Shown one piece after another: positions 1-12,421 of a DNA stretch of 64,000 bases. The stretch is taken from contig NZ_CP093339.1 in NCBI RefSeq assembly GCF_022637395.1, positions 1 through 64,000 of the forward strand, given 5' to 3'. This stretch comes from Shinella sp. H4-D48 (lineage in GTDB: Bacteria; Pseudomonadota; Alphaproteobacteria; Rhizobiales; Rhizobiaceae). The notes under the pieces are model-generated. The model searched no databases, was not told where the DNA came from, and saw only the letters and a program-made list of their open reading frames with translations. Within the stretch, counting starts at the first letter, position 1. Every line of letters starts with the position of its first letter. Position numbers and translations under genes: made by a program.

Positions 1-2
1 CC

Positions 3-344
3 GGCCCGGAAGCCCATGAGGACCGCCGCAAGCGTTGGATCGCTGGGATTGCGGCTGGCTGCTTCTACATTCTCGTCGGCGTGTTCGGCGTCACGCTTGC
101 CGCAGTCTTCACCGCTTTCCCCGCAACCTTCATCACCACGCTTGCCGGCCTCGCGCTGCTCGGCACGATCGGCGGCAGCCTCGCCGGCGCGATGGCCGAT
201 CCCGCCACCCGCGAGGTGTCGCTCATCACCTTCCTGGCCTCCGCCGCCAATATCAAGCTGCTTGGCATCGGCGGCGCCTTCTGGGGGCTGGTGATCGGCC
301 TTCTCGCCTACGCGGTTTTGAACTTCAGGTTCGGCCGCGCCTGA
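3..344 (+). CDS. benE: BenE-family benzoate/H+ symporter, C-terminal fragment
   Basis: The reading frame is open from the left edge, so only the last ~113 residues are present and the start lies outside the window. The fragment is hydrophobic with several membrane segments. It contains GTIGGSLAGAMADPATRE, then a TFLASAANIKLLGIGGAFWG stretch and a terminal membrane helix. This matches the C-terminal helices of BenE-type inner-membrane benzoate/proton symporters as I recall the family. It ends 47 bp from urtE, which converges on it from the other strand, so it belongs to a separate transcription unit. The substrate cannot be inferred from this fragment alone. Confidence 0.7.
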   Translation, partial: GPEAHEDRRKRWIAGIAAGCFYILVGVFGVTLAAVFTAFPATFITTLAGLALLGTIGGSLAGAMADPATREVSLITFLASAANIKLLGIGGAFWGLVIGLLAYAVLNFRFGRA

Positions 345-391
345 TGGCATGTCGGCCGCGGGGTGCGCCGATATTGGCCGGCGCGCCTCCG

Positions 392-1087
392 CTACACCGT
401 CATGTGGCGATGCACGAGATCATCCGTCAGCGCCGGGATAGGGCCTTGCGCGACGATACGGCCCTTTTCCATCATGGCGAAATGATCCGACGCCTCGCGG
501 GCGAACGCGATGTTCTGCTCCACAAGGATCACGGTCATGCCGAGTTCCCGGTTGAGACGCACGATGGCGCGCTCGATCTCCTCGACGATGGAGGGCTGGA
601 TGCCCTCGTTCGGCTCGTCGAGCAGCAGGAGCTTGGGGCCGGTGGCGAGTGCCCTTGCGATTGCGAGCTGTTGCTGTTGCCCGCCGGACAGGAGGCCGCC
701 TTGCCGGTCGAAATTCTCGACCAAATAGGGGAAGAGTTCCCCGACCAGCTCGGGCACGACATGCTTGCGGTCAGCGCGTGCAAACGAGCCCATCAGGATG
801 TTTTCCCGCACGGTGAAATCGGGAATGATCTCGCGGCCCTGCGGCACATAGGCGATGCCCGCCCGCGCGCGTTGATGGGTCTGCGCAGACGAGATGTCCT
901 GACCATCGAGCACGACCGCGCCCGTGCTGCGATCGGTCAGCGCCATCAGCGTCTTGAGGAATGTCGTCTTGCCGGTGCCGTTGCGCCCGAGAATGCTGGT
1001 GATCTTGCCGGCGGGCACCTCGAGCGAGATGCCTTGCAGCACATGGCTGCGGCCGTAATAGCTGTTCAGGTTCTTGATCGAGAGCAT
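392..1087 (-). CDS. urtE: Urea/amide ABC transporter ATPase UrtE
   Basis: A LivF-type ABC ATPase of 231 residues, the usual length for UrtE. Walker A is GRNGTGKTTF, the signature is LSGGQQQQLAIARAL, Walker B is LLLLDEPNEGIQ, and the H-loop follows as VEQNIAFA. It would pair with UrtD to power the UrtBC permease at the inner membrane. Its ATG overlaps the urtD stop by one base (TGATG on the coding strand), which implies translational coupling. It is the last gene of the minus-strand urtABCDE operon. Family knowledge ties this gene order to urea or short-chain amide uptake. The upstream amidase and amiCR make amides a real alternative to urea. Confidence 0.88.
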   Translation of the reverse strand: MLSIKNLNSYYGRSHVLQGISLEVPAGKITSILGRNGTGKTTFLKTLMALTDRSTGAVVLDGQDISSAQTHQRARAGIAYVPQGREIIPDFTVRENILMGSFARADRKHVVPELVGELFPYLVENFDRQGGLLSGGQQQQLAIARALATGPKLLLLDEPNEGIQPSIVEEIERAIVRLNRELGMTVILVEQNIAFAREASDHFAMMEKGRIVAQGPIPALTDDLVHRHMTV

Positions 1088-1836
1088 CAGGATATTCCCT
1101 TCGAACCGAGATAGGCCGCGCGTACGCGTGCATCGTTCTCGATCTCCGCCACGCTGCCTTCCGCCAGCACCTCGCCGAGATGCAGCACTGTGATGTGCTG
1201 GGCGATTTCCCGCACGAAGCCCATGTCGTGCTCAACGACGAGAAGCGTGTGGCGACCCTTGAGGCGGTTTATGATATCGGCTGTCTTTGACGTTTCGGCA
1301 TGGGTCATGCCGGCTGTCGGCTCGTCGAGCAGGATGACCTTAGGGTCTTGCGCCATCAGCATGCCGAGTTCAAGCCACTGGGTCTGCCCGTGGCTGAGGA
1401 ACGCCGCTGTCTTGCGCGCGACCTCAACCAGGCCTGTCAGCTCCAGTATCTCCACGATGCGCCGCCGCCGGTCGGCCGAAACGCCAAACCGGAGATTGGC
1501 AAAAACCGAGGGGTGCTTGTTGCAGCAGGCCACCTGGATGTTCTGCTCGACGGTCAGATCGCGAAACACGCTCGGGATCTGGAACTTTCGGCCGATCCCG
1601 GCGCGGGCAATGCGATGCTCCGGCCAGTTCGTGATCTCCTGGCCGAAGACGCGCACGCTGCCTTCCGTGCTGCGGATCTTGCCGCTGACGAGATCCATGA
1701 GCGTGGTCTTGCCCGCGCCATTGGCGCCGAGCAGCACCCTGAGTTCGCCGGTCGCGACGCTCAGGCTGACATCCTTGATCGCCTTGAAGCCGCCGAAGGC
1801 GACGCTCAGGCCGTTGAGTGTAAGTGCCTGGTTCAT
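1087..1836 (-). CDS. urtD: Urea/amide ABC transporter ATPase UrtD
   Basis: A LivG-type ABC ATPase of 249 residues from the chosen ATG at 1836. An in-frame start 28 codons upstream would run deep into urtC and adds a low-complexity Pro/Arg segment, so it was not used. Walker A is LGANGAGKTTLMDL, the signature is LSHGQTQWLELGMLMA, Walker B is VILLDEPTAGM, and the H-loop sits in LLVVEHDMGF. The LSHGQ-type signature in place of LSGGQ is common in UrtD. The start follows the urtC stop after one base, and the stop overlaps the urtE start, as in a tightly coupled operon. Confidence 0.87.
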   Translation of the reverse strand: MNQALTLNGLSVAFGGFKAIKDVSLSVATGELRVLLGANGAGKTTLMDLVSGKIRSTEGSVRVFGQEITNWPEHRIARAGIGRKFQIPSVFRDLTVEQNIQVACCNKHPSVFANLRFGVSADRRRRIVEILELTGLVEVARKTAAFLSHGQTQWLELGMLMAQDPKVILLDEPTAGMTHAETSKTADIINRLKGRHTLLVVEHDMGFVREIAQHITVLHLGEVLAEGSVAEIENDARVRAAYLGSKGIS

Positions 1837-1837
1837 G

Positions 1838-2977
1838 TCACGCGGTCTCCGATCGTGCAGCGCCCACGGCCGCGGGGGCCGAGGGTTGTTCGTCCCGCTG
1901 GAAGCGGGCGACGAGCGCATGGGCGAGCCCGCCCAGTCCGCGCGGCATGAAGAGCACGACGAGCACGAAGATGAGCCCGATAATGGCCTTCCATGCCTCG
2001 ACCAGCGCTTCGGTCTCGCTGACCTGTGCCTCGATCATGTTGATCAGGATGGCGCCGATGCAGGCGCCGAGCAGCGACGAGCGTCCGCCGACGGCCGCCC
2101 AAACAACCATCGTCACGGAAAAGGAGAGGTCCATGAAGGTCGGTGAAGCGAACTCTGTCACGACCACGTAGAGCATGCCGGCAAAGCCCGCGATCGCCGC
2201 CGACACGACGAAGAAGAACGTCTGGTAGACGGGCACGTTGAAGCCAAGATAACGCGCGCGCAGCTGGTCGTCGCGGATCGCCTGCAGGATGAGGCTTGCC
2301 CGTGTGTCGGCCAACAGCCGTGCGACGATCAGGGTCAGCGAGAGCGACGCTGCGCAAAGATAGTAGGTGGCCCGGCTGTAGGGATCGAACTCGATGCCGC
2401 CGATCGTCAGCCAGCCAAGGTCCGTAAGGCCGTTGAAGCCGTTGGTAATGGGTTGCGCATCGACCAGGACGAGCCGCACGAGAAGCACGAGCGCGAGCGT
2501 GATGATCGACACGAAGACGCCGGAGATGCGTTTGCGGAAGATGACGGCGCCGAGCACGCCCGCGATGACGACTGGCACAACGATGCCCATGGCAAGGCCG
2601 AACCACTGGTGCTGGAAGGGCAGCCACAGGAACGATCCCTTGTTGATGCAGCACAAATCCGTGGGTGCGCCGGGTTCGGCATTCCACAGCATGAAATCCG
2701 GTACCGGCGTGTCCGAGCCCTGCGAGAGGCTTGTGGGGCTGGCGAGCTTCAATGACATGGCAAGCATGTAGGCGCCCATGCCGAAGAACAGGCCTTGTCC
2801 CAGGTTGAGGATGCCGGCATAGCCCCAGGTCAGCGCGATGGCGACGCCGAGCATGCCGTAGACCAGGTATTTCGCGATGCGGTTCAGCCAGAATTCGTCG
2901 CCGAAAGCCGGAGCGAGGAAGAGCGCGGCGATGAACAATCCATAGGCCGCGAGCTGTATCTTGCGTTCGAGAGCCAT
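1838..2977 (-). CDS. urtC: Urea/amide ABC transporter permease UrtC
   Basis: A LivM-type inner-membrane permease of 379 residues. About ten hydrophobic segments are spread through the chain, beginning at residue ~8 and including LVYGMLGVAIALTWGYAGI and the family's GLLFFGMGAYM-like segment (seen as GQGLFFGMGAYMLAM). A longer hydrophilic loop near residues 95-125 contains two adjacent cysteines (LCCINKG). That loop is typical of UrtC rather than of generic LivM. It would form the translocation pore with UrtB. It lies 4 bp after urtB and 1 bp before urtD, in the same minus-strand operon. Confidence 0.87.
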   Translation of the reverse strand: MALERKIQLAAYGLFIAALFLAPAFGDEFWLNRIAKYLVYGMLGVAIALTWGYAGILNLGQGLFFGMGAYMLAMSLKLASPTSLSQGSDTPVPDFMLWNAEPGAPTDLCCINKGSFLWLPFQHQWFGLAMGIVVPVVIAGVLGAVIFRKRISGVFVSIITLALVLLVRLVLVDAQPITNGFNGLTDLGWLTIGGIEFDPYSRATYYLCAASLSLTLIVARLLADTRASLILQAIRDDQLRARYLGFNVPVYQTFFFVVSAAIAGFAGMLYVVVTEFASPTFMDLSFSVTMVVWAAVGGRSSLLGACIGAILINMIEAQVSETEALVEAWKAIIGLIFVLVVLFMPRGLGGLAHALVARFQRDEQPSAPAAVGAARSETA

Positions 2978-2981
2978 GGGG

Positions 2982-3875
2982 TCAGCGTCCTTTGTAAGAG
3001 AAGAGCCCGTTGGGCTTGAACAGGATCACGCCGATCACAACCGCAAAGACCACGGCGCGCGCGATGATGTCGTTGGTGCCGATCGCCACGAGTGCATTGA
3101 TCTCGCCAAGAAGCCCGGAAGACAGGATCGTGCCGAAAATGCTGCCGACGCCGCCCGTGACGACGACCATGAAGCCATCGACCACCATGGTCGCGCCCAT
3201 ATCGGGAAACACGGTCTTGAAGCCCGACATCATGACACCGGCGACGCCCGCCAGCCCCGAACCGAAGGCGAAGGTCAGCGCGTTGACGCGCTTGACGTCG
3301 ATGCCGCAGGCGGCGGCCATCTTCGGATTGCGGATGATGGCGCGAACCTGCACGCCGGCAGACGTGCGATAGAGGATAAACCAGGTCAGAGCGGTCAGGG
3401 CGAGTGTCACGCCGATGATGAAGGCGCGATAGCCGTTGAATTCCAGCCCGGCAACGGAGACCGTGCCCTGCAGGTAGGATGGCACGGTCACGTTCTGGAG
3501 GCCCGGGCCAAGACCGTCGATATGGATACCAAAGAAGGTGAGGCCGAATTCGAGCCGCACGGCCTGCTGGATGAGGATGGAAATCCCCCAGGTGGCAAGG
3601 AGCGTATCGAGAAGGCGGCCGTAGAGGCGGCGCACCACGAGGCGCTCGATGACGAGCCCGAAGAGGGCGGTCACCACGAAGGCGATGGGAATGGCGAGCA
3701 GGAAATTGGCGCCGAGCCAGATGCTGGACAGCACCGCCACATAGGCCCCGATCATCACCATTTCGCCATGCGCCATGTTGATGACGCCCATGGCACCGTA
3801 GGTAATGGCAAGCCCCAGAGCCACCAGCAGCAGGATCGAGCTGAGGCTGAGGCCAATGAAAATCACATCAAACAT
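2982..3875 (-). CDS. urtB: Urea/amide ABC transporter permease UrtB
   Basis: A LivH-type permease of 297 residues from the ATG at 3875, which has GGAAGGAA a suitable distance upstream. An earlier in-frame ATG adds a 20-residue Pro/Arg segment and no signal, and was rejected. The chain is mostly membrane helices with the family sequence GLAITYGAMGVINMAHGEM near residues 22-40. It would be the second half of the translocation pore with UrtC. It starts about 70 bp after urtA and ends 4 bp before urtC. No long periplasmic N-terminal extension, found in some UrtB proteins, is present. Confidence 0.87.
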   Translation of the reverse strand: MFDVIFIGLSLSSILLLVALGLAITYGAMGVINMAHGEMVMIGAYVAVLSSIWLGANFLLAIPIAFVVTALFGLVIERLVVRRLYGRLLDTLLATWGISILIQQAVRLEFGLTFFGIHIDGLGPGLQNVTVPSYLQGTVSVAGLEFNGYRAFIIGVTLALTALTWFILYRTSAGVQVRAIIRNPKMAAACGIDVKRVNALTFAFGSGLAGVAGVMMSGFKTVFPDMGATMVVDGFMVVVTGGVGSIFGTILSSGLLGEINALVAIGTNDIIARAVVFAVVIGVILFKPNGLFSYKGR

Positions 3876-3944
3876 TGAGCTGTTCCTTCCGGTCGAGCGA
3901 ACGCCCGCCGGGGCACGAGGACCCGGCGGGCGCAATTCGCCGAC

Positions 3945-5192
3945 TTAGCCCTTGAGCTTTGCCTGATCGAGGCCCTTGGCGGTGCAGAACAGGTTGTCCT
4001 CCGTCTCGCCGTAAGCGGAATAGGGCAGCGGCTTGAGCGGTGCCGGCTCCTCGCGGACGACCTTGCTCTGGCCGTCGGCCTGCCACTGGCCGATGCGCGG
4101 CGTCATCCAGCAATGCAGGTTATCGGCGTCGATGGTCACCTTGCCGCCGGGCGCGTCGTAGCTCTGGCCGCGAATGGCGTCGCGCATACCCTGCGGATCC
4201 AGATTGCCGGCCTTCTCCACCGCCTGCTTCCAGAGGAAGACCTGGAAATAGGCCGCCTCGAGCGAGTGATAGGTGACGGCCTTCGGGTCGTTGGTGAACT
4301 TGCGGAAGTTGTCGATGAAGGTGTGGTTCGCCGGGGTGTCGATCGACATGAAGTAGGGCACCGACATGTAGCTGCCCGCTGCATATTCCGCGCCCATCGC
4401 GGCGATCTCGATTTCCGAGGTTACGGTCGCGCAGATCGGAATGGTCTCGTGGGAAAGGCCCTGGTTCTTGAACTCGCGGTAAAAGGCGATGATGCTGTCG
4501 CCGACCACATTCGAAAGAACCACGTCGGCGCCTGATTCCTTGATCTTGTTGACCATGACAGCCCATTCGGAGTGGCCGAGTTCCAGATACTCGTCCGCCA
4601 CCCATTCGGCGCCGCTGGCCTCGATGAGCTTTTTGGAAACCTTTGCCATTTCGCGCGGATAGACATAGTTCGAGCCGACGATGAAGAACTTCTTCTTGCC
4701 GAGCGTCTCGACGATCCAGGGAATGTATTTACCGAGCTGCTGGTTCGGTATCGCGCCGGAATAGACCACGTTTCGCGAGCACTCGAAGCCCTCGTAATGG
4801 GTCTGGTAGAAGAGCGTCGCGTTGCGGCGCTCGAAGATCGGCAAGACGGCCTTGCGGCTCGCCGACGTGTGGCAGCCGAACACGGTATCGATCTTGTTCT
4901 TGACGATGAGAGAGGAGGCCTTCTCGCTGAAGGTCTTCGGGTCTGAGGCGCCGTCTTCCACGACGACCTCGATTGGCCGGCCGAGCACGCCGCCTGCGGC
5001 GTTGATCTCGCTTGCGGCCATCTGCACCGCATTGGCAAGAAGCTTTTCGACGACCGACAAGCCGCCGGTCTGGGAATAGAGGGCGCCGACGCGGATCGGG
5101 TCGGAGGCAAAGGCGCGGCCGATGATCGCCGGCGTCGTCATGACGACCGATGCGGCGGCTGTTGTCTTCAGGAAATTGCGTCTGTTCAACAT
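3945..5192 (-). CDS. urtA: Urea/short-chain amide ABC transporter substrate-binding protein UrtA
   Basis: A periplasmic binding protein of 415 residues from the ATG at 5192, with AAGGGG upstream. The N-terminus is a Tat-type signal peptide: NRRNFLKTTAAASVVMTTPA, with a cleavage region near AFASDP. The mature part begins IRVGALYSQTGGLSVVEKLL and contains TVFGCHTSASRKAVLPIFE and GSNYVYPREMA, hallmarks of the UrtA/AmiC/FmdD branch of type I binding proteins. It is the first gene of the importer operon and follows a 246-bp leader with a terminator and ANTAR-type hairpins. Induction by the AmiC/AmiR pair is therefore inferred. Urea and short-chain amides are both possible ligands. Confidence 0.85.
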   Translation of the reverse strand: MLNRRNFLKTTAAASVVMTTPAIIGRAFASDPIRVGALYSQTGGLSVVEKLLANAVQMAASEINAAGGVLGRPIEVVVEDGASDPKTFSEKASSLIVKNKIDTVFGCHTSASRKAVLPIFERRNATLFYQTHYEGFECSRNVVYSGAIPNQQLGKYIPWIVETLGKKKFFIVGSNYVYPREMAKVSKKLIEASGAEWVADEYLELGHSEWAVMVNKIKESGADVVLSNVVGDSIIAFYREFKNQGLSHETIPICATVTSEIEIAAMGAEYAAGSYMSVPYFMSIDTPANHTFIDNFRKFTNDPKAVTYHSLEAAYFQVFLWKQAVEKAGNLDPQGMRDAIRGQSYDAPGGKVTIDADNLHCWMTPRIGQWQADGQSKVVREEPAPLKPLPYSAYGETEDNLFCTAKGLDQAKLKG

Positions 5193-5236
5193 TGTGTTCC
5201 CCTTGTTGATGAACGTTGCATGGCGCGACTCCGCCA

Positions 5237-5255
5237 AATGCCGTGGCACGGCATT
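5237..5255. promoter_or_regulatory. Perfect 9-bp inverted repeat upstream of urtA
   Basis: Positions 5237-5245 and 5247-5255 are perfect inverted copies (AATGCCGTG / CACGGCATT) around a single central base. The element lies 45-63 bases upstream of the urtA start, downstream of the leader terminator. It could be a dimeric repressor or activator site, or an RNA hairpin with a three-base loop. No regulator is assigned. Confidence 0.4.
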
Positions 5256-5282
5256 CCGTCGCTGATTTTCGCTGTGATGGGA

Positions 5283-5298
5283 CTGACGACCTTGTCAG
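5283..5298 (-). promoter_or_regulatory. Hexaloop hairpin CTGAC-AAGGTC-GTCAG in the urtA leader
   Basis: On the minus strand this reads as a 5-bp stem (CTGAC/GTCAG) closing a six-base loop AAGGTC. A at loop position 1 and G at position 4 are the bases known to be conserved in ANTAR-binding hexaloops. It lies between the leader terminator and urtA. A copy with 15 of 16 bases identical lies upstream of the amidase gene (9083-9098). A DNA operator with the same dyad symmetry is the alternative reading. Confidence 0.5.
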
Positions 5299-5306
5299 GT
5301 GACAAT

Positions 5307-5339
5307 AAAAAACCCGCGAGGCTCATTCGAACCTGCGGG
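5307..5339 (-). terminator. Intrinsic terminator in the amiR-urtA leader
   Basis: On the minus strand, arms at 5339-5329 and 5324-5313 form a GC-rich hairpin (outer CCCGC/GCGGG, inner GGTTC/GAGCC with one G-U pair) and a four-base loop. Small bulges sit between the two stem halves. Six consecutive T (5312-5307) follow directly. The element lies about 115 bases before the urtA start, so it would cut off urt expression unless antitermination occurs. Confidence 0.8.
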
Positions 5340-5370
5340 CTACCTTGCCGTTGGCACTTTCCTCTGTGCC
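5336..5370 (-). promoter_or_regulatory. Candidate ANTAR (AmiR) RNA target: P1 and P2 hairpins
   Basis: On the minus strand two hairpins precede the terminator. P1 (5370-5353) has stem GGCAC/GTGCC and loop AGAGGAAA. P2 (5349-5338) has stem GGC/GCC and the six-base loop AAGGTA, with A1 and G4 as in known ANTAR targets. The 3' arm of P2 uses bases of the 5' arm of the terminator, so the two structures exclude each other, as expected for ANTAR antitermination. P1 has an eight-base loop rather than six, and the stems are short, so the assignment is an inference. Confidence 0.6.
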
Positions 5371-5438
5371 GCTTCCATGAATGGCCATGACGTTGCACGG
5401 GGACCCATGGATATATATGTCTTTCAGGACAGTGCGAA

Positions 5439-6047
5439 CTAAGCACGTTTCGGTGAGGCGCGCAAGTGCTCCTCGGACAGAACGATGGACTTTGCCACCT
5501 CCTCGATCGAAATGCGGCGCTCCATCGCCTGCCGCCTAAGATCTTGATATGCCTCGTTTTCCGTCGTGCCGTTGTGCGCCATGAGAATGGCCTTGGCGCG
5601 TGCGAGCTGCTGGTCGCCCATGACCTTCCTGCGGTATTTCCTCGTCTCCTTGATGAGGCGCTGCTGCTCCAGCCAGAGACTTCTGGCAATGGCGAGATTG
5701 GTCAGCAGACCAAAGGGTTTTATCGGCCTTTCCACCACGGCAAGAGCCCCGCTTTCCAGCACGATCTGAAGTGTCGAGGGGTTCTCGTAGCCGACGATGG
5801 CCAGCATGGTCGGGCCGGGTTTGGGCTGGTTCTTGATGAACCGCTCGATCTCGGGGCGGGCATCGTCCTCGATCGCCAGAAAGACCACATCGGTGCCGAC
5901 GGGCAACTCCGGCGGAACGGGCCAGATCTGGGTGGGAGAGCAGCCGATGCGGCGCAGGTGTTCGGTCAGCGACTGCCCCTCGGCATTGTTGGGATGGAGC
6001 ACGAGCACCTTGAGGTCCCGGAGATCTCGCAGAAGCGCAAATGACAT
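5439..6047 (-). CDS. amiR: ANTAR-domain response regulator AmiR (antiterminator)
   Basis: A protein of 202 residues from the ATG at 6047, preceded by AGGAGG. The N-terminal ~125 residues form a pseudo-receiver (LKVLVLHPNNAEGQSLTEHL) without the usual acidic phosphorylation pocket, as in AmiR. A coiled linker (LIKETRKYRRKVMGDQQL) follows. The C-terminal ANTAR three-helix domain reads LARAKAILMAHNGTTENEAY and DLRRQAMERRISIEEVAKSI. In the Pseudomonas amidase system AmiC holds AmiR until amide binds, and AmiR then binds leader RNA to prevent termination. Gene order here is amiC-amiR with a 9-bp gap, and a terminator leader lies immediately downstream before urtA. That places AmiR as its likely antiterminator. 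Confidence 0.88.
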   Translation of the reverse strand: MSFALLRDLRDLKVLVLHPNNAEGQSLTEHLRRIGCSPTQIWPVPPELPVGTDVVFLAIEDDARPEIERFIKNQPKPGPTMLAIVGYENPSTLQIVLESGALAVVERPIKPFGLLTNLAIARSLWLEQQRLIKETRKYRRKVMGDQQLARAKAILMAHNGTTENEAYQDLRRQAMERRISIEEVAKSIVLSEEHLRASPKRA

Positions 6048-6055
6048 CCTGCCTC

Positions 6056-7207
6056 CTAAAGACCGATGGCGTTGCGGGTCGCCGACATCGCCGACTCCGG
6101 TCTGTACTCGAGCATGAACGGATCGGGTGCGACACGGACGGACGGATCGTAGACGATATCGTACTCGCCCTTCGCGTTGACCTTCGCCACCCGAGGCCAC
6201 AGATGGGTGTGGTTGGTGGCGCCGTCGATCTTCACGAGCCCCTGCGGCGCATCGTACTCGACGTCCGCAAGCGCCGGCAGCAGATCGCCGAGCGCGGTGC
6301 TGCCGGCCTGTTCGAGGGCCTGGGCAAATAGGTGAACCTGGAAATAGGCCGCCTCCGCCGGTGCGGTCGGAAGGACGTCGTCACCAAATGCCCTGTGGTA
6401 ACTTGCGACGAACTCCTTCGCCTGGGGGCGGTCGAGCGTAGAGAAGAACGGTGCTGCCGTTACATGGCCCTCGGCAACGCTGGGCGTCAGCTGCCTGAAG
6501 TCGGCCTCGCTGGTGGACTGGCTGGCGATGGGCATGCGCTTCGAATCGAAGCCCGCCTCCTTGAAGGCTTTGAAGAAGGGAACGATGCCGTCTCCAACGA
6601 CCGTGGAATAGATGACGTCGGGGTTGGTGCGGCGGATGCGCTCGATGATCGTTGCGATGCTGGCATCGTCCAGGGCAAGCGGCACGTACATCTCATCCAC
6701 CACCTGGCCGCCGGCGCGCACGAAGAGATCGGCGATGGTGCGGTTCGATTCATAGGGATAGACATAGTTCGAGCCGACGAGGAACACCCGGTTGCCGTAG
6801 TTCTGCGTGAGGAACTGGACGAGCTGCACGGAATTCTGGTTGGGGGCCGCGCCCGTATAGATGCAGTTGCGCGAATATTCGAAGCCCTCGTAAAGGGTGG
6901 GATAGAACAGCAGCGCCCCCCGCGCCTCGATGACCGGCAACGCTGCCTTGCGCGTGTTGGACATGTGGCATCCGAAGACGACGTCGACCCGGTCCTCGTC
7001 GACGAGTTTCAAGGCCATGTCGCGATAGTTTGCGGGGATAGAGCCCGGATCGTAGGCGATCGGCACGATAGGTCGCCCCCGCACACCGCCGGCGCGATTG
7101 ATCTCGTCTATCGCGAGGAATGTTGCGGCGCGCTGCGTGCGCTCGACCGCCCCCGTCACCCCGGTTTCCGAAAACAGGACGCCAACGCGCCAATCATCAT
7201 TCCGCAT
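6056..7207 (-). CDS. amiC: AmiC-type amide sensor (cytoplasmic binding protein)
   Basis: A protein of 383 residues from the ATG at 7207. A TTG 12 bases upstream sits inside the U-tract of a terminator and was not chosen. The sequence starts directly with the ligand-binding fold (WRVGVLFSETGVTGAVERTQ) and has no signal peptide, unlike the homologous UrtA. It should therefore act in the cytoplasm as the ligand-controlled partner of AmiR. FGCHMSNTRKAALPVIE and GSNYVYPYESNR are shared with UrtA, showing common ancestry. Inferred role: sense amides or urea and release AmiR. It stands between the amidase gene and amiR on the same strand. Confidence 0.82.
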   Translation of the reverse strand: MRNDDWRVGVLFSETGVTGAVERTQRAATFLAIDEINRAGGVRGRPIVPIAYDPGSIPANYRDMALKLVDEDRVDVVFGCHMSNTRKAALPVIEARGALLFYPTLYEGFEYSRNCIYTGAAPNQNSVQLVQFLTQNYGNRVFLVGSNYVYPYESNRTIADLFVRAGGQVVDEMYVPLALDDASIATIIERIRRTNPDVIYSTVVGDGIVPFFKAFKEAGFDSKRMPIASQSTSEADFRQLTPSVAEGHVTAAPFFSTLDRPQAKEFVASYHRAFGDDVLPTAPAEAAYFQVHLFAQALEQAGSTALGDLLPALADVEYDAPQGLVKIDGATNHTHLWPRVAKVNAKGEYDIVYDPSVRVAPDPFMLEYRPESAMSATRNAIGL

Positions 7208-7217
7208 GCCTACCGCC

Positions 7218-7253
7218 AAAACAAAAAGCTCCCGCCCGTTGCCGGTCGAGAGC
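7218..7253 (-). terminator. Intrinsic terminator immediately upstream of amiC
   Basis: On the minus strand, arms at 7253-7247 (GCTCTCG) and 7234-7228 (CGGGAGC) pair with one G-U. They enclose a CCG/CGG inner stem with a GCAA loop. TTTTTGTTTT (7227-7218) follows. The hairpin ends about 20 bases before the amiC ATG. A 4-bp hairpin with a six-base loop (7263-7250) uses the same 5' arm and could act as an antiterminator. It may simply end the amidase transcript, or it may attenuate amiCR. Confidence 0.75.
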
Positions 7254-7359
7254 CACCCCGCTCAAGGATCTGGAAATACCAATGGCCGGATCATGTCAGG
7301 CCGTCGGCGATCTGGCAAGGGCGACATTGCCCCGCCGTGCATAACAGTTTTCGATTGTG

Positions 7360-7388
7360 GCCGGGCCGGCAAGGTATGCCGGCCCGGC
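7360..7388. terminator. Strong hairpin after the amidase gene
   Basis: Positions 7360-7370 and 7378-7388 form a perfect 11-bp GC-only inverted repeat around a 7-base loop, 13 bases past the amidase stop. No T-run follows on the minus strand, so it is either a weak or Rho-assisted terminator or an mRNA-stabilising 3' hairpin. A T-rich terminator lies about 110 bases further on. Confidence 0.6.
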
Positions 7389-7401
7389 TTCAGGAGAGCG
7401 G

Positions 7402-8949
7402 TCAGACCGCAGGCTTGCGATGCAGCGTGGCCTGCTCATAGGCGTAGGCGAGGTCGATGATCTTCGCGTCATCCCATTGCCGGGCGAGGAAGATAAGTTC
7501 GAACGGAGCGCCCGACGCATAGTAGCCGGCGGGCACGGTGATGCCGGGAATGCCGGCAATGTTGAGCTCGCCCACCGTGGTTTCCTTGATCGCGTCGCCC
7601 GAATGCAGGCCGGGCAATTCGCAAAGCATCTGCGGATAGGCGAGCGCGTCGAGCTGGTGGCGGGTGAAGACCTCATCGATAAGCCTGAGATAGGTTTCCT
7701 TGAGGGCGGCGAATTCCGGCATGGCCGGCGGCACGGCCGGTGCCTTCACCGCTTCCAGGAAGTCCGGCAGTTCGTTGAGGTAGCCGAGGATCGCGCCAAT
7801 GGCGAGCGGGTTTTCTGCGCTGGTCGCCGCGGTGAACTCTTCCCAGCTTTTCAGTGCTGCCTTGGGGCCAAGACGGCGCAGGTAGCAGGTGATGTCATAG
7901 GGCAGGGATTCCAGCCCGCGCCCGTCGAAGAACGGCGTGCCGGGCGTGATCTGCCGGTAGGTGTTGAAATCCGTGTCGGCGAAGGGATCCTCGATCAGGA
8001 TGGCACCGGCGGCTATCAACTCGCCCTTCGCACGCTCGTAGAGCGCGGCCGTCTCATCGGAGAGCGCGTCCTTGCGCCAGCCGGGTCCATAAAGCCCGAT
8101 CCGCTTGCCCTTGAGGGCGTCCCGCGAGAGATTGACGGCAAAACCGCCCGGCGGAATGTGCCCGATCGAAGCGAGCGTCTTGGGATCTTCGCAGGTGAAG
8201 CCGGCAATGGCGTCGAGGCAAAGAGCGGCGTCGGCGACCGTGCGGGCAATCGGCCCGACAACGTCGCGGTTGCTGGAAAGCGGAACGACGCCCGTATTCG
8301 GCACCATGCCGATGGTTGGTTTGATGCCGACGAGGCCCTGGGCGGAGGCAGGGTTCTGGATCGAGCCGCCAGTTTCTTCCGCAAGGCCGACAAGGCACAT
8401 ATGCGCAGCCACGGCGCTTGCAGTCCCCGCGCTCGATCCGCCCGGTGCGCGCTCCTCGATGGCGACGTTGATCGTCGGTCCCGCCCAGCTGTCATTGGCG
8501 TGCGTGCCGGTCCAGCTGAGGATCGGCACATTCGTCTTGCCGAGGATCACGGCGCCGGCGGCCTTCATGCGCGCCGCCACCGGGGCGTCCCGCTCGGGGA
8601 AGAGATCGACACCGCCGGTGCCCGAATAGAGGAGGCGCCAGCCCGCCGTGGTCGGATATCCAACCATATCGACAGTGTCCTTGATGACGACGGGGATGCC
8701 GGCCAGGGGCCCGAGCGCTTCGCCAGCCGCGCGGCGGCGGTCGATCTCACGCGCTTGTTCCAGGGCGTCGTCGCAAGGGAAGATCACGGCATTGTACTTG
8801 CCGTTCAGCCTCTCGACCTGGGCCAGTGAGGCGCGCGCGAGATCTTCGGAAGTCAGCGTGCCGGCCGCGAAGGCCGCCTGCACCTGCGCTATGGTGAGGC
8901 TGCCGAGATCGGCAAGAAGATCGGGGACGATTCTGGCAGAGGCGGTCAT
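7402..8949 (-). CDS. Amidase-signature family amidase
   Basis: A protein of 515 residues from the ATG at 8949, which has AAGGA seven bases upstream. It shows the Ser-cisSer-Lys layout of amidase-signature hydrolases: Lys90 in GIPVVIKDTVDM, the GGSSAGTA segment at ~170-177, and the nucleophile Ser196 in ETGGSIQNPAS. GLVGIKPTIGMVP and RDVVGPIARTVADAAL follow, as in the family. It would hydrolyse an amide to acid and ammonia in the cytoplasm. It is unrelated in fold to the nitrilase-type AmiE of Pseudomonas but is adjacent to amiC and amiR, so the pathway logic is the same. The exact substrate is not readable; GatA is unlikely because no gatB or gatC is present. Confidence 0.85.
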   Translation of the reverse strand: MTASARIVPDLLADLGSLTIAQVQAAFAAGTLTSEDLARASLAQVERLNGKYNAVIFPCDDALEQAREIDRRRAAGEALGPLAGIPVVIKDTVDMVGYPTTAGWRLLYSGTGGVDLFPERDAPVAARMKAAGAVILGKTNVPILSWTGTHANDSWAGPTINVAIEERAPGGSSAGTASAVAAHMCLVGLAEETGGSIQNPASAQGLVGIKPTIGMVPNTGVVPLSSNRDVVGPIARTVADAALCLDAIAGFTCEDPKTLASIGHIPPGGFAVNLSRDALKGKRIGLYGPGWRKDALSDETAALYERAKGELIAAGAILIEDPFADTDFNTYRQITPGTPFFDGRGLESLPYDITCYLRRLGPKAALKSWEEFTAATSAENPLAIGAILGYLNELPDFLEAVKAPAVPPAMPEFAALKETYLRLIDEVFTRHQLDALAYPQMLCELPGLHSGDAIKETTVGELNIAGIPGITVPAGYYASGAPFELIFLARQWDDAKIIDLAYAYEQATLHRKPAV

Positions 8950-9405
8950 GATGGGTCCTTTCCGCGCGAGACAAGCGCATGGGGCATCCGGAGCGGTGCT
9001 CCGGCTGCGCAAGATGGACCGCAACAGGCGCGACGCGCGCCTTTGGCAGGACGCACAGCATCGACGGTTGCGGAATGATTGTCTGACGTCCTTGTCAGGA
9101 GGAGGATCGGCTTGCGTCCCCGTGGGTGGGGCAGATGCGCCTTGCCGTGACCGTGGCCTTGCGGCATCGCCGGAACGGGCAAGGGGACGGTCGAAGAGAG
9201 TGTGCGACGACTGCGAATGTCCGTCAAGGTGGATTCTTGCCGGACACCCCGCAACCCCACCGCGTTTGGCCGATGCGCTTCACCCGGTGCGCGACGACAT
9301 TGAAAAAGCGGTCTGTCCCCGGTTGGATTACGCCCGTTCTGGTCTATGTTCACAATCCGATACAGACCCGGCCGGAGCAAAGCGGGTGAAACAGGAGGAG
9401 GCGAG
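8950..9405. other. Intergenic region between amidase and aldolase genes
   Basis: The 456-bp region holds the divergent control regions of the amidase (minus) and the aldolase (plus). It contains the hexaloop dyad at 9083-9098 and, on the amidase side, a 7-bp perfect hairpin close to position 8990 without a T-run. A weak sigma-70-like pair, TTGGAT (9323) and TATGTT (9345) with 16-base spacing, lies before the aldolase. No convincing gene was seen. Confidence 0.45.
9083..9098 (-). promoter_or_regulatory. Hexaloop hairpin CTGAC-AAGGAC-GTCAG in the amidase leader
   Basis: This element is nearly identical to the one before urtA (5283-5298). The stem is the same, and the loop AAGGAC keeps A1 and G4 and differs only at loop position 5. 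It lies about 134 bases upstream of the amidase ATG. Recurrence of the same element before two genes flanking amiCR supports a shared regulator, either AmiR acting on RNA or a DNA-binding protein. I could not find a clear terminator with a T-run downstream of it. Confidence 0.5.
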
Positions 9406-10302
9406 ATGACCGATCCGAAGATGATGTCCCAGATGGAAGGCAAGCCGGGATTTATCGCCGCGCTCGACCAGAGCGGCGGCTCGACGCCGGGGGCGCTGAA
9501 GCTCTACGGCATTGCCGAGACCGACTATGACGGCGACGAGGCGATGTTCCGCCTGATGCATGAGATGCGTGTGCGCATCATGACCGCACCGGCCTTTTCC
9601 GGTGACCGGGTGATCGGCGCGATCCTGTTCGAAAAGACGATGGATGGCGAAGCGGGCGGCAAGCCGGTGCCGACCTATCTGTGGGAAGACCGCGGCGTCG
9701 TGCCATTCCTGAAAGTCGACAAGGGTCTTGCGGCGGAAGAGAACGGCGCACAGATACTGAAGCCGATGCCCGACCTCGACGCACTGCTGAAGCGCGCGAG
9801 CGCAAAGGGCGTCTTCGGCACCAAGATGCGCTCTGTCATAGCGAGGGACGACAGGGCCGGTGTGGGCGCTGTCGTGCGCCAGCAGTTCGAAATCGGCCGG
9901 CAGATTCTCGATCACGGCCTCATCCCGATCATCGAGCCGGAAGTCTCCATCGGCAGTCCGAGCAAGCAGGAGGCGGAAGCGCGCCTGCGCGACGAACTCG
10001 CCCGCGAGCTGGACGCGCTGCCGGCGGGAACACGGGTTTTCCTCAAGCTCACCCTTCCCACCCAGGCGGATTTCTACAGGCCGTTGGTCGAGCACAAGGC
10101 CGTTGCGCGGGTCGTGGCACTTTCGGGTGGCTACAGCCGCGCGGATGCCTGCGAAAAGCTCAGCCGCAACCACGGCGTGATCGCCAGCTTCTCCCGCGCG
10201 CTGACGGAAGACCTGCGCGTGACGATGGACGACCCGACGTTCAATGCGAGCCTCGGCAAGACGATCGAGGAAATCTACGCGGCGAGCGTCAACAAGGCCT
10301 GA
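9406..10302 (+). CDS. fda: Class I fructose-bisphosphate aldolase
   Basis: A protein of 298 residues from the ATG at 9406, with AGGAGG upstream. It resembles the ~296-residue bacterial class I aldolases: FIAALDQSGGSTPGALKLYG at the start, ILFEKTMDGEAGGKPVP, then GTKMRSVIARDD and a central IIEPEVSI. A Lys in FLKLTLP fits the Schiff-base residue. Known reaction of the family: reversible cleavage of fructose 1,6-bisphosphate to dihydroxyacetone phosphate and glyceraldehyde 3-phosphate, metal-independent. A LysR gene follows 47 bp downstream. The gene is transcribed away from the amidase and is probably an independent unit. Confidence 0.85.
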   Translation: MTDPKMMSQMEGKPGFIAALDQSGGSTPGALKLYGIAETDYDGDEAMFRLMHEMRVRIMTAPAFSGDRVIGAILFEKTMDGEAGGKPVPTYLWEDRGVVPFLKVDKGLAAEENGAQILKPMPDLDALLKRASAKGVFGTKMRSVIARDDRAGVGAVVRQQFEIGRQILDHGLIPIIEPEVSIGSPSKQEAEARLRDELARELDALPAGTRVFLKLTLPTQADFYRPLVEHKAVARVVALSGGYSRADACEKLSRNHGVIASFSRALTEDLRVTMDDPTFNASLGKTIEEIYAASVNKA

Positions 10303-10349
10303 CCGCGCTTTGACGCGCCCCGTTGCGCTATTTATGACGGGGCGAGGGG

Positions 10350-11270
10350 GTGACGGTGAGCATGGTTTCCAATCGCAACGAGCTATCCGATCTGGCGGTG
10401 TTCCTTCAGATCGTCCGCAGCCGAAGCTTCCGCAAGGCCGCTGACCAGCTTGAAATATCCGTGTCCGCCCTCAGCCACCGCATGAAGGCGCTGGAGGGGC
10501 GGCTCGGCGTACGGCTCCTGAACCGGACGAGCCGGAGCGTTTCCCCGACAGCCGCTGGATCGGCGCTGGCCGAGAAGGTCGCGGCCGGTCTCGATCTTAT
10601 CACAAGCGGGCTGGAGGAATTGCAGGGCCGCTTCAGCGGCATTGCCGGCAGCGTGCGCATCAACGTCTTGCGCGATGCCGTCGACCTGCTGCTGACGCCG
10701 GTGCTGCCGCTGTTTCGCGAGCGCTATCCCAATATCGAGCTGGAGATCGCCTCCGAGGATTCCTTCGTTGACGTCACGGCGGAGGGTTTCGATGCGGGCT
10801 TGCGTTACGCCGGCACCATTCCCGAGGACATGATCGCCGTGCCGGTCACGGAGCCGCTGAACTGGGTCGCGGTGGCCTCGCCGGCCTATCTTGCCCGCTC
10901 GGGACGACCCTCCAAGCCCGAGGACCTGCTGTCGCACAACTGTATCCGCATTCGAACCGGGCGCGGGCAAATCTATCACTGGGAGTTCGAGCGTGGCGAG
11001 GACAAGCGGCAGATCGATGTGCCCGGCGCGCTGATATCGGGCTCGACAGATGTCTCCGTGTCGGCGGCGCTGTCGGGCATCGGTATCGCCTATTGCCTGG
11101 AAAAGGTGGCCGAGCCGCATCTGCGGACCGGGCGGCTGGAGCGGGCGGTGCCGGACTGGTCGTCGCTCGGACCTCCGCTCGCTTTCTACTATTCCAGCCG
11201 CCGGCAGGTGCCCTACGGTTTGCAGGCGCTGATACAGACCATCCGCGAAGTGCAGCCGCGTCATCGTTGA
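10350..11270 (+). CDS. LysR-family transcriptional regulator
   Basis: About 306 residues from the GTG at 10350; an ATG four codons later (10362) is equally possible. The N-terminal winged helix-turn-helix reads AVFLQIVRSRSFRKAADQLE and ISVSALSHRMKALEGRLGVR. A LysR substrate-binding domain with GFDAGLRYAGTIPEDMIAV and a C-terminal YYSSRRQVPYGLQALIQTIR follow. It belongs to the branch whose members often regulate adjacent oxidoreductase genes. The neighbours are an aldolase upstream and two aldo-keto reductases downstream on the same strand, and these are possible targets. The effector is unknown. Confidence 0.85.
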   Translation: MTVSMVSNRNELSDLAVFLQIVRSRSFRKAADQLEISVSALSHRMKALEGRLGVRLLNRTSRSVSPTAAGSALAEKVAAGLDLITSGLEELQGRFSGIAGSVRINVLRDAVDLLLTPVLPLFRERYPNIELEIASEDSFVDVTAEGFDAGLRYAGTIPEDMIAVPVTEPLNWVAVASPAYLARSGRPSKPEDLLSHNCIRIRTGRGQIYHWEFERGEDKRQIDVPGALISGSTDVSVSAALSGIGIAYCLEKVAEPHLRTGRLERAVPDWSSLGPPLAFYYSSRRQVPYGLQALIQTIREVQPRHR

Positions 11271-11395
11271 ACCTGGCTCAATGATCCGTTGAGCGATAGG
11301 TCATTGATGCAATGATCGCGACCGCGTACCCCTGATGCCGTAGTGCCGGAATGCCGGAGCCCGGTCCCGTCCGGCTGAAATGCAAAGGAGACAGC

Positions 11396-12421
11396 ATGTA
11401 TCTCGCCAATCCCAACCGCTACGACGGCACCGAATATCGCCGCAGCGGAAACGCCGGTCTCCGCCTGCCGCCGATTTCGCTCGGCCTCTGGCACAATTTC
11501 GGCGGCATCGACCTGTTCGAGACCGGCCGCAGCGTCGTGCGGCGCGCCTTCGACCGTGGCGTCACGCATTTCGATCTTGCCAACAATTACGGCCCGCCGC
11601 CCGGCTCGGCTGAGGAAAATTTCGGCGTCATCCTGAAGAAGGATTTCCGTCATCACCGCGACGAACTCGTCATCTCGTCCAAGGCGGGCTGGGAAATGTG
11701 GGATGGCCCCTATGGCCGCGGCGGCTCGCGCAAGCACCTGCTGGCGTCTCTCGATCAAAGCCTCCAGCGCATGGGGCTTGACTATGTCGACATCTTCTAT
11801 TCCCACCGCCCGACGGAAGACGTGCCGCTCGAGGAAACGATGGGCGCGCTGATCCAGATGGTGCATCAGGGCAAGGCGCTCTATGTCGGCCTGTCTTCCT
11901 ACGGGCCGGAGCGCACCCGCGCGGCCGAGCGCATCCTGCGTGCCGAAGGCGTGCCGCTGCTGATCCACCAGCCGTCGTACTCCATGCTCAACCGCTGGAT
12001 CGAGAACGGCCTGCTCGATACGCTCGGCGACCTCGGCGTCGGCTGCATCGCCTTCTCGCCACTCGCGCAGGGACTGCTCACGTCCAAATATCTCAACGGT
12101 GTCCCGCAGGATGCGCGTGCCGCTCGCGCCGGCTCCTTTGACGAGGCGCTGCTGAGCGAGGGCAACCTTGCCCGTGTGCGGGCGCTGAACGAGATCGCCA
12201 AGCGCCGTGGCCAGTCGCTGGCACAGATGGCGATCGCCTGGGTGCTGCGGGATGCGCGCGTGACGTCGACCCTGATTGGTGCACGAAATGTCGCCCAGCT
12301 CGACGATTCGCTTGACGCGCTGAACAAGCTCGCTTTCAGCGACGAGGAACTGAAGGAGATCGATACTCACGCCACGGAAGGCGGCATCGATCTCTGGCGT
12401 GACATGATCAGCGCAAAATGA
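11396..12421 (+). CDS. gpr: L-glyceraldehyde 3-phosphate reductase-type aldo-keto reductase
   Basis: A protein of 341 residues from the ATG at 11396 after AAGGAG. It aligns by eye with E. coli YghZ along its length: YLANPNRYDGTEYRRSGNAG, LPPISLGLWHNFGG, THFDLANNYGPPPGSAEENF, FYSHRPTEDVPLEETM and IHQPSYSMLNRWIE. The AKR tetrad is visible (Asp and Tyr in FDLANNYG, Lys in ISSKAGW, His in FYSHR). Known activity of YghZ is NADPH-dependent reduction of L-glyceraldehyde 3-phosphate and methylglyoxal. The 125 bp before it contain three CAATGA motifs (one inverted) that may be a regulator site. A second reductase follows 66 bp later. Confidence 0.85.
   Translation: MYLANPNRYDGTEYRRSGNAGLRLPPISLGLWHNFGGIDLFETGRSVVRRAFDRGVTHFDLANNYGPPPGSAEENFGVILKKDFRHHRDELVISSKAGWEMWDGPYGRGGSRKHLLASLDQSLQRMGLDYVDIFYSHRPTEDVPLEETMGALIQMVHQGKALYVGLSSYGPERTRAAERILRAEGVPLLIHQPSYSMLNRWIENGLLDTLGDLGVGCIAFSPLAQGLLTSKYLNGVPQDARAARAGSFDEALLSEGNLARVRALNEIAKRRGQSLAQMAIAWVLRDARVTSTLIGARNVAQLDDSLDALNKLAFSDEELKEIDTHATEGGIDLWRDMISAK

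Follow-up and report, generated by a model that had tools for sequence, protein, structure and literature searches.

Candidate AmiR-responsive antitermination leaders on both sides of the amiC-amiR pair, ahead of an Urt-type ABC importer in Shinella

Genes and leader elements of the locus

The window, i.e. the whole stretch of 64,000 nucleotides from Shinella sp. H4-D48 that was analysed, carries on its minus strand, in the order in which the genes are read, an amidase gene (8949-7402), amiC (7207-6056), amiR (6047-5439), a gap of 246 nt and the genes urtA to urtE (5192-392). The sequence-only reading of this DNA had described an ANTAR-type antitermination leader in the gap between amiR and urtA. 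A second leader of the same type, absent from that reading, is located before amiC (7263-7218). We refer to the leader before amiC as leader 1 and to that before urtA as leader 2. Residues within a hairpin loop are numbered from its 5' side, so that A1 and G4 denote an adenine at the first and a guanine at the fourth loop position. The genes and features are listed below.

7402-8949, minus strand: amidase, 5' of amiC and in the same orientation (PF01425, Pfam E 2.7e-74)
7290-7318, minus strand: promoter-like site TTGCCA-17-CATGAT before amiC (promoter scan), with a predicted RNA start near 7283
7250-7263, minus strand: P2-type hairpin of leader 1, GAGC-GGGGTG-GCTC, G1 and G4
7218-7254, minus strand: intrinsic terminator of leader 1 with its T tract, overlapping P2 (-17.6 kcal/mol, z -4.06)
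6056-7207, minus strand: amiC, amide sensor of the cytoplasmic type (Peripla_BP_5, Pfam 8.1e-137)
5439-6047, minus strand: amiR, antiterminator with AmiR_N and ANTAR domains (Pfam 7.9e-38 and 2.2e-13)
5353-5370, minus strand: P1 hairpin of leader 2 with an 8-nt loop, GGCAC-AGAGGAAA-GTGCC
5338-5349, minus strand: P2, predicted antiterminator hairpin of leader 2, GGC-AAGGTA-GCC, A1 and G4
5307-5340, minus strand: intrinsic terminator of leader 2 (stem 5340-5312) with a six-T tract (5312-5307)
5283-5298, minus strand: P3 hairpin, just 3' of the terminator, CTGAC-AAGGTC-GTCAG, A1 and G4
3945-5192, minus strand: urtA-like periplasmic binding protein with a TAT signal (Pfam 2.3e-141, TAT_signal)
2982-3878, minus strand: urtB, permease (TIGR03409, above cut-off)
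1838-2977, minus strand: urtC, permease (TIGR03408, above cut-off)
1087-1842, minus strand: urtD, ATPase (TIGR03411, above cut-off)
392-1087, minus strand: urtE, ATPase (TIGR03410, above cut-off)

The starts of amiC (ATG at 7207) and amiR were both picked by inspection. AmiC has a ligand-binding fold and adjoins amiR, and no export signal is apparent in it, as there is no TAT_signal match in Pfam and no signal sequence by eye at the N-terminus; its nearest solved structure is Pseudomonas aeruginosa AmiC (1pea/1qo0, E 6.8e-99). AmiR is built from a pseudo-receiver (AmiR_N) and a C-terminal ANTAR domain, is closest among solved structures to AmiR (1qo0_D, E 4.1e-28), and is 96% identical in the nearest named relative, a Shinella. 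The amidase is 95% identical in the Shinella locus L003, where it occupies the same place relative to the other genes. The amiC-amiR-leader-urtABCDE layout is also found on large plasmids of the laboratory strains Agrobacterium fabrum C58 (pAt, L165) and Rhizobium johnstonii 3841 (pRL12, L168). In C58 a nitrilase-related hydrolase is encoded 3' of urtE, whereas the window instead has the amidase 5' of amiC. A long, GC-rich hairpin, GCCGGGCCGGCA...TGCCGGCCCGGC (7388-7360, minus strand), follows the amidase stop in the window and lacks a T run.

The importer had been named urtABCDE, an assignment that stands for four of its five components: UrtB, UrtC, UrtD and UrtE all exceed their NCBIfam cut-offs, but UrtA reaches only 406.7 bits against TIGR03407, under the cut-off of 492.75, and thus falls outside that family. 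The residues listed for urea-bound UrtA in the available text of PMC10392092 are Trp120, Ser122, Tyr141, Gln144, Glu146, Tyr190, Asn246 and Ser274. In an alignment with residue mapping of our own, the window's UrtA has His, His, Val and Val at the equivalents of Trp120, Gln144, Asn246 and Ser274, respectively, and so lacks the urea-binding set, and AmiC has His, Leu and Val at the equivalents of Trp120, Gln144 and Asn246; both proteins retain Ser122, Tyr141, Glu146 and Tyr190. Together with the neighbouring amidase, these pocket residues suggest, with moderate confidence, that the ligand of AmiC and UrtA is an amide rather than urea. The 'urt' label is therefore apt for the family membership of urtBCDE, but in view of the residues and score of UrtA, urea need not be the substrate, and rhizobial and agrobacterial 'urea' importers encoded behind amiCR may be mislabelled amide importers.

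Within leader 2, direct reading located P1, P2 and the terminator before urtA at the positions originally proposed. P1 folds with -7.0 kcal/mol, which is equalled by 2 of 200 shuffles; it had been taken for an ANTAR six-base-loop hairpin paired with P2, a part of the proposal that we discard, as its loop AGAGGAAA comprises 8 nt. Without a six-base loop bearing A1 and G4 at P1, the leader lies outside the dual-hexaloop definition. P2 has a stem of at least 3 bp and a six-base loop with A1 and G4, and its folding energy of -3.9 kcal/mol is unremarkable alone (38 of 200 shuffles equal it). The terminator stem is far stronger (-18 to -20 kcal/mol, with individual values of -19.5 and, where 0 of 200 shuffles are as good, -18.1), and the stretch from P1 to the terminator folds with -34.3 kcal/mol as compared to -20.2 for its shuffles (z -5.04, 0 of 200 shuffles). 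The trinucleotide GCC at 5340-5338 is common to P2 and the 5' arm of the terminator, which bears out the proposed competition between the two hairpins by base sharing. Since the terminator is strong and P2 is weak, termination is the expected default.

It had also been suggested that a TATATA element might serve as an internal promoter for this leader. The element, TATATAT at 5417-5411, does not coincide with a sigma-70-like site in the promoter scan of positions 1-12000, which returned no promoter-like site in the amiR-urtA gap, and in an alignment of 7 loci only those from Shinella share it. A big predicted hairpin 5' of P1 (5411-5374, minus strand) is likewise kept in Shinella only in this alignment; it was rejected as an ANTAR hexaloop, as its inner loop is CAACGU and lacks A1 and G4. 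A search of Rfam at the gathering score gave no match anywhere in the window, and with E up to 5 over 5150-7400 the single match was RF00489 at 7216-7258 (19.1 bits as compared to a cut-off of 50, E 0.81), which we take as a chance match to the terminator hairpin.

In leader 1, the P2 loop GGGGTG has G4, and its first position is G rather than A. The promoter-like site TTGCCA-17-CATGAT is the sole one found in 1-12000, where the mean of the shuffles is higher, at 2.5; it is partly conserved in 10 aligned loci. The RNA start predicted from it lies ~20 nt 5' of the leader 1 P2, leaving no room for a P1 hairpin. As this leader is positioned before amiC, AmiC and AmiR may gate their own synthesis.

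Conservation and covariation among AmiR loci

The comparison drew on 61 non-duplicate AmiR loci that were retrieved from a sample of genomes across the family, the class and the phylum. They are made up of the window itself, L003, 44 of 49 additional rows with at least 141 bits, and 6 and 9 genomes from two further searches. An AmiC-like gene adjoins amiR in each of the 42 loci with an examined gene context (the window, L003 and L073-L112). A UrtA homologue is encoded 3' of amiR in 28 of these, either directly or after another gene (nitrilase type by reading), and was not seen within the stretch examined in the other 14. In L081, L086 and L090-L092, where a nitrilase-type gene comes right after amiR, inspection by eye shows TTGAC-like promoter sequences in the interval from amiR to the leader, which may be transcribed on its own in these loci.

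Intrinsic terminators were identified by one scanning rule applied to all fetched stretches. A competing hexaloop hairpin with G4 accompanies 47 of 65 terminators after amiR and 15 of 24 before amiC, as compared to 29 of 213 elsewhere, counts that are not independent because the loci share ancestry, so that P values of the enrichment overstate independence. Hexaloops with both A1 and G4 compete with 8 of the 213 terminators elsewhere. A hexaloop P1 is also present upstream in 35 of 65 cases after amiR, 4 of 24 before amiC and 6 of 213 elsewhere. When the loop letters are left free, a competing hexaloop is found at 55 of 65, 20 of 24 and 68 of 213 terminators, respectively, and of these, 47 of 55, 14 of 20 and 29 of 68 have G in fourth place. 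Counted by locus, a terminator after amiR is present in 48 of the 61, P2 in 43 and P2 together with P1 in 31. No terminator after amiR was found by the rule in 13 of the 61 loci, and five more have a terminator without such a P2; the rule is strict, as L112, among the thirteen, has a match of 48.9 bits to covariance model R1 (see below) after its second amiR, and L094, among the five, has by eye a hexaloop whose fourth letter is C. In L103, L111, L138 and L142, the amiR-urtA gap contains two complete P1-P2-terminator leaders in tandem; the same arrangement is seen by eye in L106, where the scan missed the second terminator.

To gauge covariation, 51 leaders were aligned using MAFFT with no structure supplied. 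In this alignment, 82.7% of the P1 and P2 cells are paired as compared to 72.5% in shuffles, with 54 versus 19.6 both-side changes, values to be read with the selection of the 51 leaders for a detected P2 in mind, which favours the P2 pairing and its G4. The corresponding values for the terminator are 85.5% versus 70.2% and 64 versus 24.6, and sliding the structures along the alignment lowers the pairing to no more than 58.7% and 57.6%. There is no clear excess in the number of pairs with both-side changes or in further pair types (values as high occur in 279, 38, 476 and 120 of 500 shuffles). Conservation of P2 and the terminator after amiR in relatives, accompanied by covariation, was the check that the sequence-only reading had proposed, and it came out in favour, though two of the five covariation measures are not above shuffles. 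The fourth P2 pair is unpaired in 30 of the 51 leaders, so that P2 is effectively a stem of 3 bp. Changes at three positions go together, namely at the base that closes P2, at the base with which it pairs, and at the terminator mate of the latter: T,A,T occurs in 8 leaders and T,G,T in 1, the other 42 having C,G,T or C,G,C. Judged from the alignment, this three-way base change is the pattern expected of two hairpins that compete for one strand.

A covariance model, R2, was built from 40 leaders, leaving out the window and all loci with an AmiR identity of at least 63%; L073 and L075-L078 (AmiR 47-50%) were retained for training. Over the 64-kb window and with no filters, the first-ranked match of R2 is the leader before urtA (5393-5303, 20.2 bits, E 0.001) and the second is the leader before amiC (7310-7218, 15.5 bits, E 0.02), followed by a match of 8.8 bits. 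R2 also matches both sites in 6 of 6 left-out relatives (L003, L082, L084 and L107-L109), as well as in A. fabrum C58, S. oryzae and N. galegae. On the 4.77-Mb genome, where 150 of 2148 candidates were scored and 9 hits obtained, neither window site is among the matches listed, and the best hit elsewhere has the same score as the urtA leader, 20.2 bits, indicating that R2 is not specific enough genome-wide. Model R1, whose training included the window's own leaders, returned 12 genome-wide hits with E up to 10, in which the window sites score 38.1 and 34.1 bits and the next hit 20.2. Three hits of the R1 and R2 lists were inspected as further AmiR targets and rejected, as C1:299723, C1:270558 and C1:282100 (L146, L156 and L157) look like ordinary terminators after a gene, with no visible P2-type hairpin. 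C1:282100 is positioned right before what reads as an amino-acid ABC binding protein.

P1, leader 1 and P3 in the closest loci

We defined as close the 22 loci in which AmiR is at least 44% identical to that of the window and the next gene encodes a UrtA with at least 52% identity to that of the window; they comprise 13 of the 61 loci together with L165-L171, L174 and L175, and below this group the next lower identity of a UrtA directly behind amiR is 48.8%. No hexaloop P1 (G4, stem of at least 4 bp) was found in 11 of 11 loci of the Shinella/Agrobacterium/Rhizobium type (the window, L003, L082, L084, L165-L169, L174 and L175). In these loci P1 is a hairpin with a loop that by eye has 3, 4 or 8 nt: a tri- or tetraloop in Agrobacterium and Rhizobium, and the 8-nt loop in the window. 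By eye, the place of P1 is taken by a 3-bp GAC-AnnGnn-GTC hexaloop in L073-L077, L170 and L171, by CCGAC-AGCGTC-GTCGG in L078 and by GAAC-GGGGAT-GTTC in L107-L109.

Before amiC, 15 of the 22 close loci have a terminator with a competing G4-type hexaloop. The counterparts of the leader 1 hairpin are GAGC-AGGGTA-GCTC in Agrobacterium, Rhizobium and Neorhizobium, and GAGC-AGGGCA-GCTC in L107-L109. The remaining seven loci (L073-L078 and L170) have no such terminator before amiC by scan. A hexaloop hairpin seen by eye 5' of amiC is kept among these seven, GGAAAC-AGTG(G/C)C-GTTTCC, and is possibly an AmiR site that works by another route.

P3 lies inside the interval covered by the sequence-only reading, yet is unmentioned there. 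It was first spotted in an alignment holding L165-L167 and by eye elsewhere, and was then counted: it is present in all 13 close loci among the 61, which with L165-L167 makes 16 of 16, and in 6 of 6 held-out close loci that were fetched later (L168-L171, L174 and L175), four of which are near kin of loci already seen, Ancylobacter (L171) being the most distant. All 22 close amiCR-urtA loci thus contain P3. For comparison, an A1/G4 hexaloop with a stem of at least 5 bp occurs in 431 of 12000 random 67-nt windows and in 4 of 213 stretches after other terminators. Outside the close group, two hairpins pass among the other 34 amiR-leader terminators with P2, both in L111 and both unlike P3; Comamonas (L173) has P1 and P2 and no P3, and Thioclava (L172) has no terminator after amiR. 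On the sense strand the 22 loci present eight distinct P3 loops (AGTGAC, AAGGCC, AGGGCT, AAGGTC, AAGGCT, AGTGTC, AGGGCC and AGTGAA), closed by CTGAC/GTCAG, CCGAC/GTTGG, CCGAC/GTCGG or CTGAC/GTCGG stems. The P2 of L167 accommodates an insertion of 2 nt by pairing as GGCA-AGCGGG-TGCC, which still has A1 and G4.

CTGAC-N6-GTCAG is a perfect inverted repeat, as might be expected of a palindromic DNA operator, but it is improbable that P3 acts at the DNA level rather than as an RNA site, as A1 and G4 are present in 8 of 8 distinct loops and the other four positions vary, for which a DNA operator has no need, and as the stems shift from C-G to T-A with a T-G intermediate in L175. P3 is probably a further, predicted AmiR site. 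Being transcribed after the terminator, it cannot act on it, and it is unlikely that P2 and P3 form a classical dual pair, as P3 is made past the termination point and is 39 nt from P2. The RNA site could titrate AmiR, affect translation or stability, or be the remnant of a second tandem leader. We tentatively envisage, at somewhat short of an even chance, that AmiR acts twice per transcript, with P2 preventing termination and P3 then either tying up AmiR, which would limit the positive loop created by leader 1, or protecting or tuning translation of the importer; in this lineage, single hexaloops would operate antitermination with two gates in series.

Proposed mechanism and relation to known ANTAR switches

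Control of the importer by AmiC/AmiR antitermination, as put forward in the sequence-only reading, retains the protein pair, the competition between P2 and the terminator, the conservation and the covariation, and loses the P1 hexaloop and the extra promoter. The adjacent location of AmiC and AmiR, and their closeness to the solved P. aeruginosa pair, argue for it. With the anatomy, conservation, covariation and gene content as observed, it is quite likely that the locus contains two AmiR-responsive antitermination leaders in series, and that freed AmiR grips P2 at each of them, raising expression of amiCR and the importer. Polymerase starting 5' of amiC would encounter terminator 1 (7254-7218) and, after amiC-amiR, terminator 2 (5340-5307) ahead of urtA. 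When the ligand is absent, AmiR would be held by AmiC and both terminators would fold; ligand binding to AmiC would free AmiR, whose ANTAR domain would grip the emerging P2 hexaloop (GGGGTG in leader 1, AAGGTA in leader 2), thereby keeping the common 5' arm out of the terminator and allowing polymerase to read on. The AmiC/AmiR pair would in this way boost both its own production and the importer's, and P3 would arise only in the read-through RNA. In this scheme the release of AmiR from AmiC is modelled on P. aeruginosa, and RNA binding, the ligand, the order of events and the promoter are likewise predictions. Several points count against it: there is no strict P1 in this lineage, whereas EutV needs two hexaloops for antitermination (PMC3369931, PMC8934654), position 1 of the leader 1 P2 loop is G, not A, and some of the AmiR loci lack a terminator after amiR (13 of 61) or have one without such a P2 (five more).

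The rate at which P2-like hairpins accompany terminators elsewhere (29 of 213) means that P2 could be there by chance in any one genome; taken by itself, its presence in this window counts for little, and it is on conservation that the case rests. It is nevertheless very unlikely that P2 is a chance hairpin beside an ordinary terminator that lowers or ends expression after amiR, with urtA read from another promoter. The enrichment, the covariation and the performance of a model trained without near relatives are at odds with such an arrangement, as are the similarly built leader before amiC and the lack of a promoter-like site in the gap by scan. The genome encodes two ANTAR proteins, and the leader could in principle answer to the second (C2:720416) instead of the neighbouring AmiR, which we judge extremely unlikely, as the leader accompanies amiCR in 43 of 61 loci and the second protein has, by eye, an AmiC-like partner and a binding protein of its own. 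Its gene (L143, G000:C2:716500-724500) comes after that of the AmiC-like protein and before that of another binding protein with hardly any gap, also by eye.

A different version of the antitermination mechanism, in which the role of P1 has been lost in Shinella, Agrobacterium and Rhizobium and P2 alone suffices, as it would in leader 1, is in our estimate evenly balanced. It is consistent with the finding of no hexaloop P1 in all 11 such loci, with the ~20 nt that the inferred start of leader 1 leaves before P2, too little for P1, and with the EutV structure, for which the available text of PMC8934654 gives one hexaloop as the minimal binding unit. Antitermination by EutV nonetheless requires both hairpins, and P1 is still a hairpin in the window, where it may act via an A.A mismatch and an inner loop GAGGAA with G at position 4. 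Natural leaders that lack a strict P1 bear on whether one hexaloop suffices for antitermination. Leader 1 bears on whether the gene of an ANTAR regulator can itself be subject to antitermination by that regulator, forming a positive loop through RNA, and P3 on what a kept ANTAR-type hexaloop does past a terminator.

The two-leader arrangement proposed here shares its parts with several known systems, which we describe as far as the accessible portions of the cited papers go. ANTAR RNAs are defined by a six-base loop (PMC3369931, PMC8934654). In P. aeruginosa, the same protein pair as in the window operates through ligand-induced breakage of the AmiC-AmiR complex, and the target RNA has, as here, a six-base-loop hairpin ahead of an intrinsic terminator (PMC3369931); the operon is amiEBCRS with its leader before the amidase gene amiE (PMC3795266), whereas in the window the regulator pair is located between two leaders, the second of which precedes an ABC importer. 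In Enterococcus faecalis, the P2 hexaloop of the eut leaders has A1 and G4 and overlaps the terminator, as in the window, but the eut leaders have two strict hexaloops, both needed by EutV, and respond to a phosphorylated response regulator (PMC3369931, PMC8934654), whereas P1 here lacks a six-base loop and AmiR would be released by ligand. A Klebsiella plasmid operon, amiE-amiC-amiR-ABC transporter, similarly joins amiCR and an importer, and no leader RNA is described in the text available for it (PMC13209695). Within the literature covered, we found no report of an ANTAR leader between amiR and urtA or before amiC, or of a hexaloop 3' of the terminator; the sites of this locus may nevertheless be among those tabulated in the supplement of PMC3369931.

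A parallel in gene order is the Paracoccus denitrificans nasTS-leader-nasABGHC arrangement, in which the genes for an ANTAR regulator and its sensor lie directly 5' of their own leader, as here; that leader is ~200 bp long and contains hairpins, and mutation of a hairpin in the chromosome abolishes the use of nitrate (PMC5424462). The nasA leader is a binding target of NasT (PMC3795266). The system differs in responding to nitrate through NasS and NasT, and a second antitermination leader before nasT is not described in the accessible text. The covariance search of Ramesh et al. (2012) placed ANTAR RNAs upstream of urea transporters (PMC3369931). As the nasTS-nasA leader and the urea-transporter ANTAR RNAs are already known, the core of the present locus would work like a known kind of switch, and what sets it apart from known ANTAR switches, as read from its sequence, is the predicted doubling of the leader, a P1 without a hexaloop, and P3.
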